Shown piece by piece: positions 7,069-33,968 of a DNA stretch of 64,000 nucleotides. The notes beneath the pieces were generated by a model that saw only the letters and a list, made by a program, of their open reading frames with translations, was not told the DNA's origin and made no database searches. The position numbers were made by a program, and so were the translations under genes. The DNA is from Thermoplasmatales archaeon I-plasma. GTDB taxonomy: Archaea; Thermoplasmatota; Thermoplasmata; Thermoplasmatales; GCA-001856825. The stretch spans positions 62,004 to 126,003 of the forward strand of contig ATMD01000002.1 in NCBI GenBank assembly GCA_001856825.1, in the 5' to 3' direction. How positions within the stretch are numbered: the stretch's first letter is position 1; each line of letters starts with the position of its first letter.

Positions 7069-8001
7069 TCAGGCCTTGCTCTCTTCCATCACCCTGGCAT
7101 TATGCCCATCGATCAGCAGGAATATTGTCTCATCCTTGTGCTGAAACTCGAGTGTCCAGACTGGAATGTGCACAAGGTACATATCAGCGATATCAACATT
7201 TACGTTTGCTGACAGGAACCCTCTGACGCTCTTTTGCAGCCTCCTGATTTCCCACTGCTGTATCCTTATCTTTCCTTCCAACCTAGCTTTCTCTTCACCC
7301 ATGCTCCCGTTCATGAGTTTTATAGGCCCGCTCAAGTCATTCTGTTCAATCGGTCTCTTATTTGAAAGATTGAATACGTAGTCCGGAGGTTGATACTGGT
7401 TCATGTCCTCTATAGCAATGACGGGGTAATGGACCTCATTCACATCCGAGCCTGATTCAACAATTGTTTGTACGTTTATTGAGGGGCCCCCGAAGCCCCC
7501 TCTTCCACCCATCCCTACTGCAACGAATCCCCCCGGGTTTACCTGTTCCCTTTTGTATTGATACTGGGCAGAATAACCTGCATCCATTATCCAGTATGGA
7601 ATGTAATTCAGCTCCACCTTCTTCAGTTGACTCTTTTCGAAAAGGTGTCTATGGAATATGCTGTTATCAAGGAATTCCTTAGATATCTGCTCGGCCTGGT
7701 CCTTCATCTGTACCTTGATATCCAGTATGAAGTGCTTGTCCACCTTCGTCCATCCGAGAGATCCCAGGGATATGGATGTGCCGCAGTAAGTACATACGAC
7801 CATTGCCTCGCCTGATGCTGGATTCAACGGTGCTCCACAGTTGGGGCACTTCATCTCCTTAAGAACATCAGACTGTTCTTTCCCGTTCTTTCCACTTGCT
7901 TGGGAGGTGGTTGAACCGCTTTTCTGGGGGGCTCCGCACTTCGGACAGAAATCTGAATCGTCCGGTATCTCGGAACCACACTTTTTGCAGTACGTTTCAG
8001 A
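7069..8001 (-). CDS. Zinc-ribbon protein with conserved C-terminal domain; frame opens upstream of the called ATG
   Basis: The ORF track starts this at ATG 7854 (261 residues: MKCPNCGAPLNP..VVCTYCGT rubredoxin-like knuckles, then a beta-rich domain of unknown role). The same frame is open back to about 8001 and encodes SETYCKKCGSEIPDDSDFCPKCG, a complete CxxC-CxxC zinc ribbon, plus a Ser/Gly/Lys linker. That segment has no ATG, GTG or TTG, so the reading must come from elsewhere: a +1 shift out of the upstream zinc-ribbon frame near 8002, or a start lost to a one-base change (dropping one base gives GTG-TCT-GAA). It belongs to the minus-strand SPFH operon. Biochemical role unknown. Confidence 0.65.
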   Translation of the reverse strand, partial: SETYCKKCGSEIPDDSDFCPKCGAPQKSGSTTSQASGKNGKEQSDVLKEMKCPNCGAPLNPASGEAMVVCTYCGTSISLGSLGWTKVDKHFILDIKVQMKDQAEQISKEFLDNSIFHRHLFEKSQLKKVELNYIPYWIMDAGYSAQYQYKREQVNPGGFVAVGMGGRGGFGGPSINVQTIVESGSDVNEVHYPVIAIEDMNQYQPPDYVFNLSNKRPIEQNDLSGPIKLMNGSMGEEKARLEGKIRIQQWEIRRLQKSVRGFLSANVNVDIADMYLVHIPVWTLEFQHKDETIFLLIDGHNARVMEESKA

Positions 8002-8233
8002 TCACCTTCTCACCACAGTTCGGACAGAATTTTGATCCCGGAGGAATATCCGTACCGCATTTAGGGCATTTTGTCACTATCGCTTTACCACATTCTGGGC
8101 AGAATTTGGAATTCTTGGGTATATCTTTTCCGCAGTACGGGCATTTCATCGTTTCCTCGGCAACGAAACTGTAACCGCAGGAAGGACAGAACTTTGCATT
8201 TTCATCCACATCAGCCTGGCACTTTGGGCACTT
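7997..8233 (-). CDS. Zinc-ribbon array, apparently the frame-shifted C-terminus of the SPFH protein
   Basis: The called ORF (GTG 8209, 70 residues) holds zinc ribbons of the form KCPYCGKDIPKNSKFCPECG and KCPKCGTDIPPGSKFCPNCG. Read upstream of the GTG, the same frame gives KCPKCQADVDENAKFCPSCG, so the called start falls between the two cysteine knuckles of one ribbon. Those first knuckles overlap the last codons of the SPFH ORF in another frame. Skipping one base at about 8234 joins EKRVK to KCPKCQ, giving a normal SPFH protein with C-terminal zinc ribbons like the YdjI / 'virion core protein' family. Unlikely to be an independent gene. Confidence 0.7.
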   Translation of the reverse strand, partial: KCPKCQADVDENAKFCPSCGYSFVAEETMKCPYCGKDIPKNSKFCPECGKAIVTKCPKCGTDIPPGSKFCPNCGEKVI

Positions 8234-9161
8234 GCTTCACTCTCTTTTCCACCGGCGGCTGTTGCCTGGGTTCATCCCCTGTGTAATGCTTTGAGGCCAT
8301 TGGATACGCCATCCCTGCACCCGCCCCTAGGCCCATACCGAGCCCCACCCCTGCACCGGCAGTTCCGCTGCTGTTCTTTGCGGCATCTACCATTGCCTGT
8401 CCAGCCTGATACTGTAGGTAGTTGGCTCCAACCGCCTTCATACTGGATCTGGTATCTATCGCTTTCTGTACTTCGTCAGGGAGGGAAATGTTGAGGCCTG
8501 AGATCTTGTTCAGTTCGACTCCGTATTGGTCAAATGCCGCTTTTGCTGAAGCAAGTACTGCTTCCTCTATATTCATAAGGTTAGACGGAAGGTCAAGAAC
8601 AGAGACACCCTGGTCCTTCATCTTGCCAAGGACGTTGTATATCAGCAGTACCACCTGATCCCTTATCCTCCCCTCAACGTCTGCGCTCGTTTCTATGTTG
8701 AATGTGCCTACGAACTGGTTTATGAATATTGATGGGTCAGAGATCCTGTACCTCATGTCACCGAACAGTCTCAGCATTACTATATCGAAATCCTTGTCCC
8801 TGAATGCGTATGGTTCCTTGGAACCAAACTTCCCATCGATGATTCTTCTCTGTAGGTAATAAACGTAAGCCTGCTGCTGAACACCGCTCAGTGCCTTGAC
8901 CAAGCCACCGACCACCGGTGCATTAAGGTCAGTCAGAGCATATCTTCCGGGCTTGTCAATGTACCATATTGCCTTTCCATCCCTGAAGAATACGGCTGTT
9001 TCGTCCTCCCTAACCACAGCATTATCATTAAGCCTTATGAGTCTTGGGACCTTCCACATTATGTTTCCCTGCTTGAATTGGTCCTCCCATTCAAATGTGG
9101 TAGAGCCAAATAAGCTTCCTCCCTTTGATGGAATGTCTGAACTCTTCTTCCCGAATGGCAT
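8211..9161 (-). CDS. SPFH-domain protein (YdjI / 'virion core protein'-like)
   Basis: A 316-residue SPFH (stomatin/prohibitin/flotillin-like) protein. Residues about 1-100 carry the FGKKSSDIPSKGGSLFGSTTFEWED and VREDETAVFFRDGK segments typical of the family; about 100-230 is the SPFH fold with helices of the FDQYGVELNKISGLNISLPDEVQKAIDTRSS type; a Gly/Ala-rich stretch (GTAGAGVGLGMGLGAGAGM) then links to what should be zinc ribbons. The ORF ends in QVPKVPG, an out-of-frame reading of KCPKCQ. Relatives occur in small operons with zinc-ribbon and coiled-coil proteins and are thought to act in membrane stress or scaffolding. It starts 1 nt from the end of the upstream gene. Confidence 0.85.
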   Translation of the reverse strand: MPFGKKSSDIPSKGGSLFGSTTFEWEDQFKQGNIMWKVPRLIRLNDNAVVREDETAVFFRDGKAIWYIDKPGRYALTDLNAPVVGGLVKALSGVQQQAYVYYLQRRIIDGKFGSKEPYAFRDKDFDIVMLRLFGDMRYRISDPSIFINQFVGTFNIETSADVEGRIRDQVVLLIYNVLGKMKDQGVSVLDLPSNLMNIEEAVLASAKAAFDQYGVELNKISGLNISLPDEVQKAIDTRSSMKAVGANYLQYQAGQAMVDAAKNSSGTAGAGVGLGMGLGAGAGMAYPMASKHYTGDEPRQQPPVEKRVKQVPKVPG

Positions 9162-31262: not shown

Positions 31263-33968
31263 ATGCCAGATGGGTCGTACAGGGAAGTGGAACAAAAGTT
31301 GTTAGATGTCCTCAAGGAGAGAGGATTCAATGAATTCACGGAACCGCAGAGAATTGGTATACCGGAGATCCTGAAAGACCATAATGTTCTTCTTACCTCC
31401 CCCACGGGCAGCGGCAAAACAGAAGCCGCAGTCCTCCCTGTTTTCTTCAAGCTTAGTCAAATGAAGGAAAAGATCCAAGGATTCGGTGCCATATACATAA
31501 CCCCGCTCAGAGCACTCAACAGGGATGTACTCTCTAGGATAGAATTCTACGCGGAGTCATTCGGCCTCAAAGCTGGCGTGAGACATGGTGACAGCAGTGA
31601 GAGCGAAAGGAGGTATCAGCTTCTACACCCCCCTCAAGTCCTAATAACAACGCCTGAAACACTTCAGCTAATCGTGAGCGGGAGGAAGATAAGGAACCAC
31701 CTCAGGACAGTCAGGTACGTCATAATTGACGAGGTCCACGAGCTGCTCAATGATGAGCGCGGATGGCAATTGATGATAGGTCTGTCACGGATGAGGGAGA
31801 TTGCTCCGGATTTCAAAATAATAGCAATCTCCGCAACAATCGGTAATCCGGAAGAGGTATCCAGGAGTATCTTTTTTGCCAACGACTACACGATCCTGAA
31901 GGCAGGGATTGCTAAGAAATATGAAATTAAAGTCTCTATGCCGAACGGCGCCCTTCCCTCATTCAAGGACATCATAGGATCTGACGAGAATTACGCGCAA
32001 ATAGTTGATTACATAATGAAATTGTACAATTCAAATAAGCAGTTCATAGTTTTTTCCAACACGAGGGCAACTGCCGAAGACATAGTGATGAGGCTGAGGC
32101 TTGTTGATGAAAATATACTGGTTGAAGTGCATCACGGTTCCCTCGGCAAGGACGTAAGAACGAAGATTGAGGACGACTTCAAAAGGGGGAAACTGCGGGG
32201 CATAATATGCACATCGAGCATGGAACTGGGCATTGACATAGGCAGCGTTGATTTTGTCGCACAGGTAAATTCCCCCAGGCAGGTCATTAGGCTTGTTCAG
32301 AGGGTTGGACGGGGAAAACACAGGCTTGGTGATACATCGAAGGGAGAGATAGTCGCAATGAACGAGATTGAATCAGAGGAGGGAGGCGTCATCTCGAAGT
32401 TTGCGGAATCAGGCCTGATAGAGAAGGTGAAGGTCAGGGAAAAACCATTGATTGTGGTTGCGAACCAGATAATGGCAATGGTTCACTCAGAAAGACAGAT
32501 TACCCTCGAAAAAGCATACAACATATTCAATCGTGTCAACAATTTCAGAAACCTGACAAAAGATGACCTGGCATCACTCCTGACTTTTCTTTCGTCGATT
32601 TACGTGATAAGATACGACCCTGAGACCCAGGAAATTCGCAGGAGCGGAAGGACTCTGAAATATTTCATCGAGAATATTTCGATGATACCGGACGAGAAAA
32701 GATATGTTGTTAAGGAGTCAAGCTCAGCGAAGATCATTGGATTCCTTGACGAGGGGTACGTTGCAACTGAGATAGATATGGGCTCTACTTTCACGCTAAA
32801 GGGGAGCACGTGGAGGGTCCTTGGAATAAAGGACAGGTACATCTATGTGGATTTCATCCAGGGAATTTCTGTCCCTCCCAGCTGGTCTGGTGAGGAGATA
32901 CCAGTACCCTTTGAAATTGCAATGGAAGTGGGGAGGGAGAGAAGGGAGAACATCCTAGGCGACAGCCTAGATGAATTCACAAAGGACAAGGTAAGGAACT
33001 TCAGGCAAAGCGCCGCAAATGATCGGCTGATGAGGATAGAGAAGGAAGGGACGACTACGGTCATACAGCTTACGGCCGGAACGAAGGCAAATTATACCCT
33101 TGCACTCATCATCACCTTCAGGCTGTCTGAAAAGTATGGTGAATCCTTCCTCTTTGACAATTCGCCTTATCACATAGTCATAAGCGGGAACACAAGGTAC
33201 AGGGTTGAGGAGATAGTTGACATAATTGAGCATCTGGGGGATGAATTCGAGAACCTGGACAGGTTTGTGGAAAAGTCAAAAACTTTTCAGTACAGCACAA
33301 TCAATGTTGCAAAGAAATTCGGCGTGATATCCAAGGAGAGCGACTTCACGAGGATAAGGATGGACAGGATATTCTCCTCACACAGGAATACCCCATTCTT
33401 CAACGAGGCCCTTGACAAGTTCAAGTGGGATTACTTGGATATTGAGAACCTCACCACTATCCGTGACCTTATTTCAAGTGGAGAAATGGCAATTGAAGTC
33501 AAGGGCTCATTCTCGAACTCATCTAAACTCTACATGAGCAGCCTTAAGGAAAAGATGATGCCCATCAGGCCCTCGGCACCTATACTGTCTGCTGTGAAGA
33601 AAAGACTTCTATCTGAGGAGATGGCATTCTACTGTCTCAGCTGCCATAGGGTATTCAAAACGAGGGTGCAGGACCTCAAGGAGAGGAGGTGCATATTTTG
33701 CAGCAGCCCCAGGATTGCTCCAATCAAACCTTACGAGATCGAGAACGCCAAGAAGATGTCACCTGAGGCTATGAGAAAGATCAGGACATCGTACCATCTT
33801 CTGAGGATGTATGAGGATAGGGCACTCATAGTCCTTGCGGCCCATGGGATAGGTCCTGAGAGTGCATCTAGAATCCTTGAAGTTCCATCGAAGTCGGAGA
33901 ACGAGCTGCTTGAAAGGATACTGGTAAACGAGGTGGAATTTGCCAAGAACAGAAGATTCTGGTCTTAG
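31263..33968 (+). CDS. lhr: Lhr-type ATP-dependent helicase
   Basis: Large archaeal SF2 helicase (901 residues). Q motif FTEPQRIGIPEI (about 22-33), Walker A SPTGSGKTEAA (about 45-55), motif Ib TPLRALNRD, motif II IIDEVHELL, motif III ISATIG, motif V GIDIGSVDFV and VI QRVGRGKHRLG. Winged-helix and Lhr-core domains follow. Near the C-terminus CLSC...CIFC (about 793-822) forms a zinc knuckle absent from many bacterial Lhr proteins. It unwinds DNA or RNA-DNA hybrids in repair or transcription conflicts. Its 3' end overlaps the convergent mptA gene by 4 nt. Confidence 0.93.
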   Translation: MPDGSYREVEQKLLDVLKERGFNEFTEPQRIGIPEILKDHNVLLTSPTGSGKTEAAVLPVFFKLSQMKEKIQGFGAIYITPLRALNRDVLSRIEFYAESFGLKAGVRHGDSSESERRYQLLHPPQVLITTPETLQLIVSGRKIRNHLRTVRYVIIDEVHELLNDERGWQLMIGLSRMREIAPDFKIIAISATIGNPEEVSRSIFFANDYTILKAGIAKKYEIKVSMPNGALPSFKDIIGSDENYAQIVDYIMKLYNSNKQFIVFSNTRATAEDIVMRLRLVDENILVEVHHGSLGKDVRTKIEDDFKRGKLRGIICTSSMELGIDIGSVDFVAQVNSPRQVIRLVQRVGRGKHRLGDTSKGEIVAMNEIESEEGGVISKFAESGLIEKVKVREKPLIVVANQIMAMVHSERQITLEKAYNIFNRVNNFRNLTKDDLASLLTFLSSIYVIRYDPETQEIRRSGRTLKYFIENISMIPDEKRYVVKESSSAKIIGFLDEGYVATEIDMGSTFTLKGSTWRVLGIKDRYIYVDFIQGISVPPSWSGEEIPVPFEIAMEVGRERRENILGDSLDEFTKDKVRNFRQSAANDRLMRIEKEGTTTVIQLTAGTKANYTLALIITFRLSEKYGESFLFDNSPYHIVISGNTRYRVEEIVDIIEHLGDEFENLDRFVEKSKTFQYSTINVAKKFGVISKESDFTRIRMDRIFSSHRNTPFFNEALDKFKWDYLDIENLTTIRDLISSGEMAIEVKGSFSNSSKLYMSSLKEKMMPIRPSAPILSAVKKRLLSEEMAFYCLSCHRVFKTRVQDLKERRCIFCSSPRIAPIKPYEIENAKKMSPEAMRKIRTSYHLLRMYEDRALIVLAAHGIGPESASRILEVPSKSENELLERILVNEVEFAKNRRFWS

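Follow-up and report, generated by a model that had tools for sequence, protein, structure and literature searches.

The window analysed here, a 64,000-nucleotide stretch from the genome of Thermoplasmatales archaeon I-plasma, carries on its reverse strand a conserved, ordinary operon that is widespread in archaea and consists of a gene for a 173-residue protein, a gene for an SPFH protein with four zinc ribbons and a gene for a second zinc-ribbon protein (Table 1). The SPFH protein matches the Band 7 family PF13421 with 116.7 bits (1.5e-33) against a Pfam gathering cut-off of 24, and the zinc ribbons of the intact SPFH ORF of the nearest relative (L002, the same record as genome G006) match Zn_Ribbon_1/DZR. 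The original prediction, made from the letters of the DNA, had identified an SPFH/zinc-ribbon operon correctly. A profile search for a second PF13421 gene in this genome found none, and the SPFH gene is thus present as a single copy. The 173-residue protein shows a weak match to NF047596, with a score far under the cut-off of that model, and the position of its gene ahead of the SPFH gene is kept in relatives ranging from Thermoplasmata to Nitrosotalea. The 308-residue product of the downstream gene combines an N-terminal zinc ribbon, a second ribbon (MKCPNCG...) and a long beta-rich domain, which appears as a long-stranded beta domain in its AlphaFold model (mean pLDDT 79). A comparison of this model with the PDB gave no match at E ≤ 0.001, and a PDB sequence search with the SPFH protein and with the 261-residue protein originally read from the downstream frame gave no hits. 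We infer that the operon likely encodes an SPFH scaffold associated with the membrane, together with partners that bear ribbons.

Table 1. Features of the SPFH/zinc-ribbon operon, with positions counted from the first letter of the window.
Feature	Position	Strand	Remarks
Upstream operon gene, 173 aa	9162..9683	-	ORF; matches no Pfam family; next to the SPFH gene in relatives as well
SPFH (Band 7, PF13421) ORF as sequenced, 316 aa	8211..9161	-	
Cluster of four one-base insertions seen only in this assembly	8234..8289 (aligned at 8289, 8268, 8266, 8234)	-	Nucleotide alignments
Four-zinc-ribbon C-terminal part of the SPFH gene, shifted frame	7997..8236	-	Natural stop TGA 7999-7997
Shine-Dalgarno (SD) sequence AGGTGATC	8000..8007	-	Complementary to the 16S 3' end over 8 bases; separated from ACG by 4 bases
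Downstream gene, 308 aa	7069..7995	-	Probable start ACG (7995-7993); relatives have ATG/GTG/TTG there

As sequenced, the SPFH and ribbon portions of the operon are read in three frames. The SPFH ORF terminates with QVPKVPG-TGA, the ribbon frame that follows it reads SKCPKCQADVDENAKFCPSCG...GEKVI-TGA, and a third frame reads SETYCKKCGSEIPDDSDFCPKCG... and stays open down to 7069, with its first ATG, GTG or TTG at 7854. The original prediction regarded both joins as breaks within cysteine knuckles, each requiring one skipped nucleotide in the same (+1) direction, and proposed either base-calling error or a recoding that would yield SPFH proteins differing in how many zinc ribbons they carry. The frames and the +1 arithmetic are present at both joins as it described them; the two sites are nonetheless different in kind.

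The join at 7999 (site 2) is, by comparison of the 66 loci that reach it (the window included), an ordinary boundary between two genes. In all relatives reaching this point, the SPFH/ribbon gene stops and a separate gene starts 0 to 74 bases further on, at a fixed position of its protein directly before the motif (Tyr/Phe)-Cys-x-Lys-Cys-Gly. Sixty loci have ATG, GTG or TTG directly before Tyr/Phe-Cys and four have ATG one codon earlier, which gives a canonical start codon in 64 of the 66 loci, the two others being the window and its nearest relative, both of which have ACG. Since the offset between stop and start is scattered over the three possible frame relations (offsets 0, 1 and 2 at 27, 23 and 15 loci, respectively), nothing shifts at this site. 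Members of the genus end the upstream gene with TGA, TAA or TAG, preceded by ATC, AAT, AAC, AGC or AAA, and neither a conserved shift site nor a fusion of the SPFH gene with the 308-residue gene was found among the relatives compared at site 2, so the +1 common to both sites is a coincidence. The stop that had been placed within a cysteine knuckle of a broken gene is, in relatives, the natural end of that gene. As for the 261-residue ORF that had been described as lacking any start, it does indeed lack ATG, GTG and TTG until 7854, but it belongs to a separate gene with a conserved start position, and this frame seemed startless because the codon at that position is ACG.

The ACG is common to the window and to its nearest relative, which are two separate assemblies, and is therefore unlikely to be an error. 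All 38 aligned proteins, that of the window included, have the four cysteines of the first ribbon (C3, C6, C17, and C20) without exception. The SD sequence ahead of the ACG pairs with the 3' end of the 16S rRNA of this genome (GGATCACCTCCT) over 8 bases, whereas none of 68 other starts sampled in the contig exceeds 7, a difference that concerns a single case and was noticed after the fact; six other members of the genus have a 6-base SD (AGGTGA) at the same junction. The downstream gene appears to start at ACG, a codon that is probably used. Ribosomes that finish the SPFH-ribbon gene at its TGA, or bind the SD embedded in its end, would most likely start the next protein at the ACG, the lengthened SD, possibly together with coupling to the upstream stop, compensating for the weak codon. 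We give about even chances to the full proposal that ACG serves two sister species as the start of a conserved zinc-ribbon protein, a longer SD and coupling to the upstream stop offsetting the weakness of the codon.

A possible, if somewhat doubtful, alternative is that in both species with ACG the start of the gene has moved to ATG 7854 and its first ribbon has been lost, what lies ahead of this ATG being a remnant of that ribbon. ACG is indeed a poor start codon in E. coli, in which reporter initiation at ACG amounted to 0.1–1.5% of that at ATG (PMC6925171). Moreover, no canonical start occurs for 47 codons after the ACG until ATG 7854 is reached, and the ribbon changes accumulated since the two species split are not clearly constrained, as the window and its nearest relative differ in 23 first-ribbon codons by 1 synonymous and 2 nonsynonymous changes, a divergence too small to prove translation. 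Against this alternative, neither species has lost any ribbon cysteine or the IPDDSDFCPKCG core, no stop interrupts the frame up to the conserved start position, and the strongest SD match of the sample sits at the ACG, whereas the GGAG at ATG 7854 directly abuts the ATG and is badly spaced for an SD. A scan for other non-canonical starts at conserved positions, in which the candidates were judged by eye, otherwise returned what looked like query starts extended too far, spurious ORFs or genes that have another possible start nearby; the probable initiation at the ACG is the one leftover of mild interest, a mildly unusual feature of the operon.

The join at 8234 (site 1) does break a gene, although by four private insertions rather than one. 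Nucleotide alignments of the SPFH gene with the nearest relative, which is 92.4% identical to the window over 29 kb, and with nine further relatives place four single-base insertions within 56 bases, and none of the ten aligned relatives carries any of them. The insertions at 8289, 8268, and 8266 sum to +3, altering about 8 linker residues and restoring the frame, and the fourth (8234) breaks the frame just ahead of the first ribbon; it is because of these private insertions that the ribbons of the window lie out of the SPFH frame, whereas those of relatives such as L002 lie in the same ORF as the SPFH domain. Indeed, the counterpart of the SPFH ORF in relatives continues without a shift through all four zinc ribbons to about 386 aa, the SPFH domain and ribbons form one stop-free ORF of about 377–417 aa in the ten remaining genomes of the genus and four of the family, and the order-level relatives readable at site 1 likewise have the SPFH domain and four zinc ribbons in one open frame. 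Past the break, the ribbon codons differ from those of L002 by 14 synonymous and 2 nonsynonymous changes, a codon pattern that bears the mark of translated sequence under strong constraint. Since the ribbons are so constrained, any break at site 1 is either very recent or not real.

The contig provides further cases against which site 1 can be read. In a 204-kb sample of it, the window included, which was compared with about 145 ORFs of another genome, G003 (110 kb covered), and with 127 ORFs of the nearest relative, G006 (79 kb), nucleotide alignments revealed five frameshifted genes, the SPFH gene among them, each shifted by extra bases in this assembly; two of the five were compared with G003 only, and the gene names given here come from reading the sequences, without a family search. 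Outside the window, an agmatinase/arginase-like gene (contig position 31335) is shifted by a 4-base GCTA duplication and is intact in both G003 and G006, a ribH (lumazine synthase)-like gene (57181) has 2 extra bases relative to both genomes, and an ABC-transporter ATPase-like gene (136250) has 1 and, further on, 2 extra bases relative to G003, which put a conserved stretch out of frame. Within the window, at about 45933 (contig position 107936), a cation/proton antiporter-like gene contains, close to its start, 2 bases that G003 lacks; the G006 sequence compared has no stretch homologous to this gene. Frame breaks that hit such genes, that are all insertions and that are partly clustered indicate assembly error. 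Most of the other coding sequence compared in the window shows no frameshift, so an error at site 1 would be a local one.

On these alignments, the four insertions at site 1 are most likely a sequencing or assembly error rather than mutations, and the organism probably produces an uninterrupted SPFH protein with all four ribbons. It could be held against this reading that the insertions at 8289, 8268 and 8266 together amount to +3 and leave the frame unchanged, an outcome that selection, too, could bring about. Such compensation would also speak for a genuine recent frameshift, the strain truly having the insertions, with an SPFH protein ending in QVPKVPG and ribbons either lost or re-initiated at GTG 8209, which lies 1 base past the SPFH TGA and could in principle yield them as a 70-aa protein. 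We consider this unlikely: four private insertions in 56 bases accompany a normal density of substitutions, every frameshift in the contig sample is an insertion, the ribbons are strongly conserved, and the single-copy SPFH gene has no second family member to cover its loss.

A conserved operon with one local sequence defect (site 1) and one normal gene boundary (site 2) is thus, with high probability, what the window contains. Programmed +1 frameshifting, be it at a single site or at both, producing SPFH proteins with differing numbers of zinc ribbons, is highly improbable, since, even if both joins in the window are +1, no relative shows the break at site 1, site 2 has neither a conserved shift site nor a conserved frame relation, the gene that follows it has a canonical start codon of its own at 64 of 66 loci, and, by inspection, a tRNA-Ile on ATC would re-pair poorly at +1 on TCT. 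Alignment with the orthologous operons of relatives, which the original prediction had named as a way to decide the matter, thus fails to support recoding at two same-direction sites: at site 1 all relatives read are simply in frame, an outcome that the prediction itself had named as a refutation and that refutes recoding there, and at site 2, where no gene is broken, they have separate genes with a variable stop, preceding codon, spacing and frame relation. The prediction had itself allowed for base-calling error, and for site 1 this suspicion agrees with the private cluster of insertions and the other insertion frameshifts of the assembly. The case calls for caution, as what looked like a pair of same-direction frameshifts in one operon did not survive alignment with relatives. 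If initiation at ACG is true, the downstream gene would be a clean natural archaeal example of a gene whose product persists although no ATG/GTG/TTG remains at its conserved start position, and its start would belong to a class that gene finders miss.

Two known phenomena resemble parts of this locus at the level of translation. As in programmed +1 frameshifting (prfB, antizyme), two frames offset by +1 adjoin in the window; unlike in prfB and antizyme, relatives share neither a shift site nor a frame relation and show no fused product, and it is the separate start codon that is conserved. With respect to non-AUG (ACG) initiation, the window and its nearest relative have ACG as the putative start of a gene that is otherwise conserved; a literature search of limited coverage, hence weak as evidence, found no report of ACG initiation in archaea. 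At the level of protein families, the SPFH protein resembles YdjI, the SPFH protein of the pspA operon of Bacillus subtilis, through PF13421, a family that also has a match in B. subtilis. YdjI works with PspA and links it to the membrane (PMC8581546), whereas the partners here are the 173-residue gene and the 308-residue ribbon protein; identity with the YdjI-PspA system was rejected, as PspA_IM30 (PF04012) has no match in this genome in a search that was positive in 9 of 14 control genomes. Methanogen ESCRT/adaptin loci encode an SPFH protein with a coiled coil and a zinc ribbon (PMC10936438); that protein and the one described here are both archaeal SPFH proteins bearing zinc ribbon sequence, the neighbours in the present case being the two other genes of the operon.
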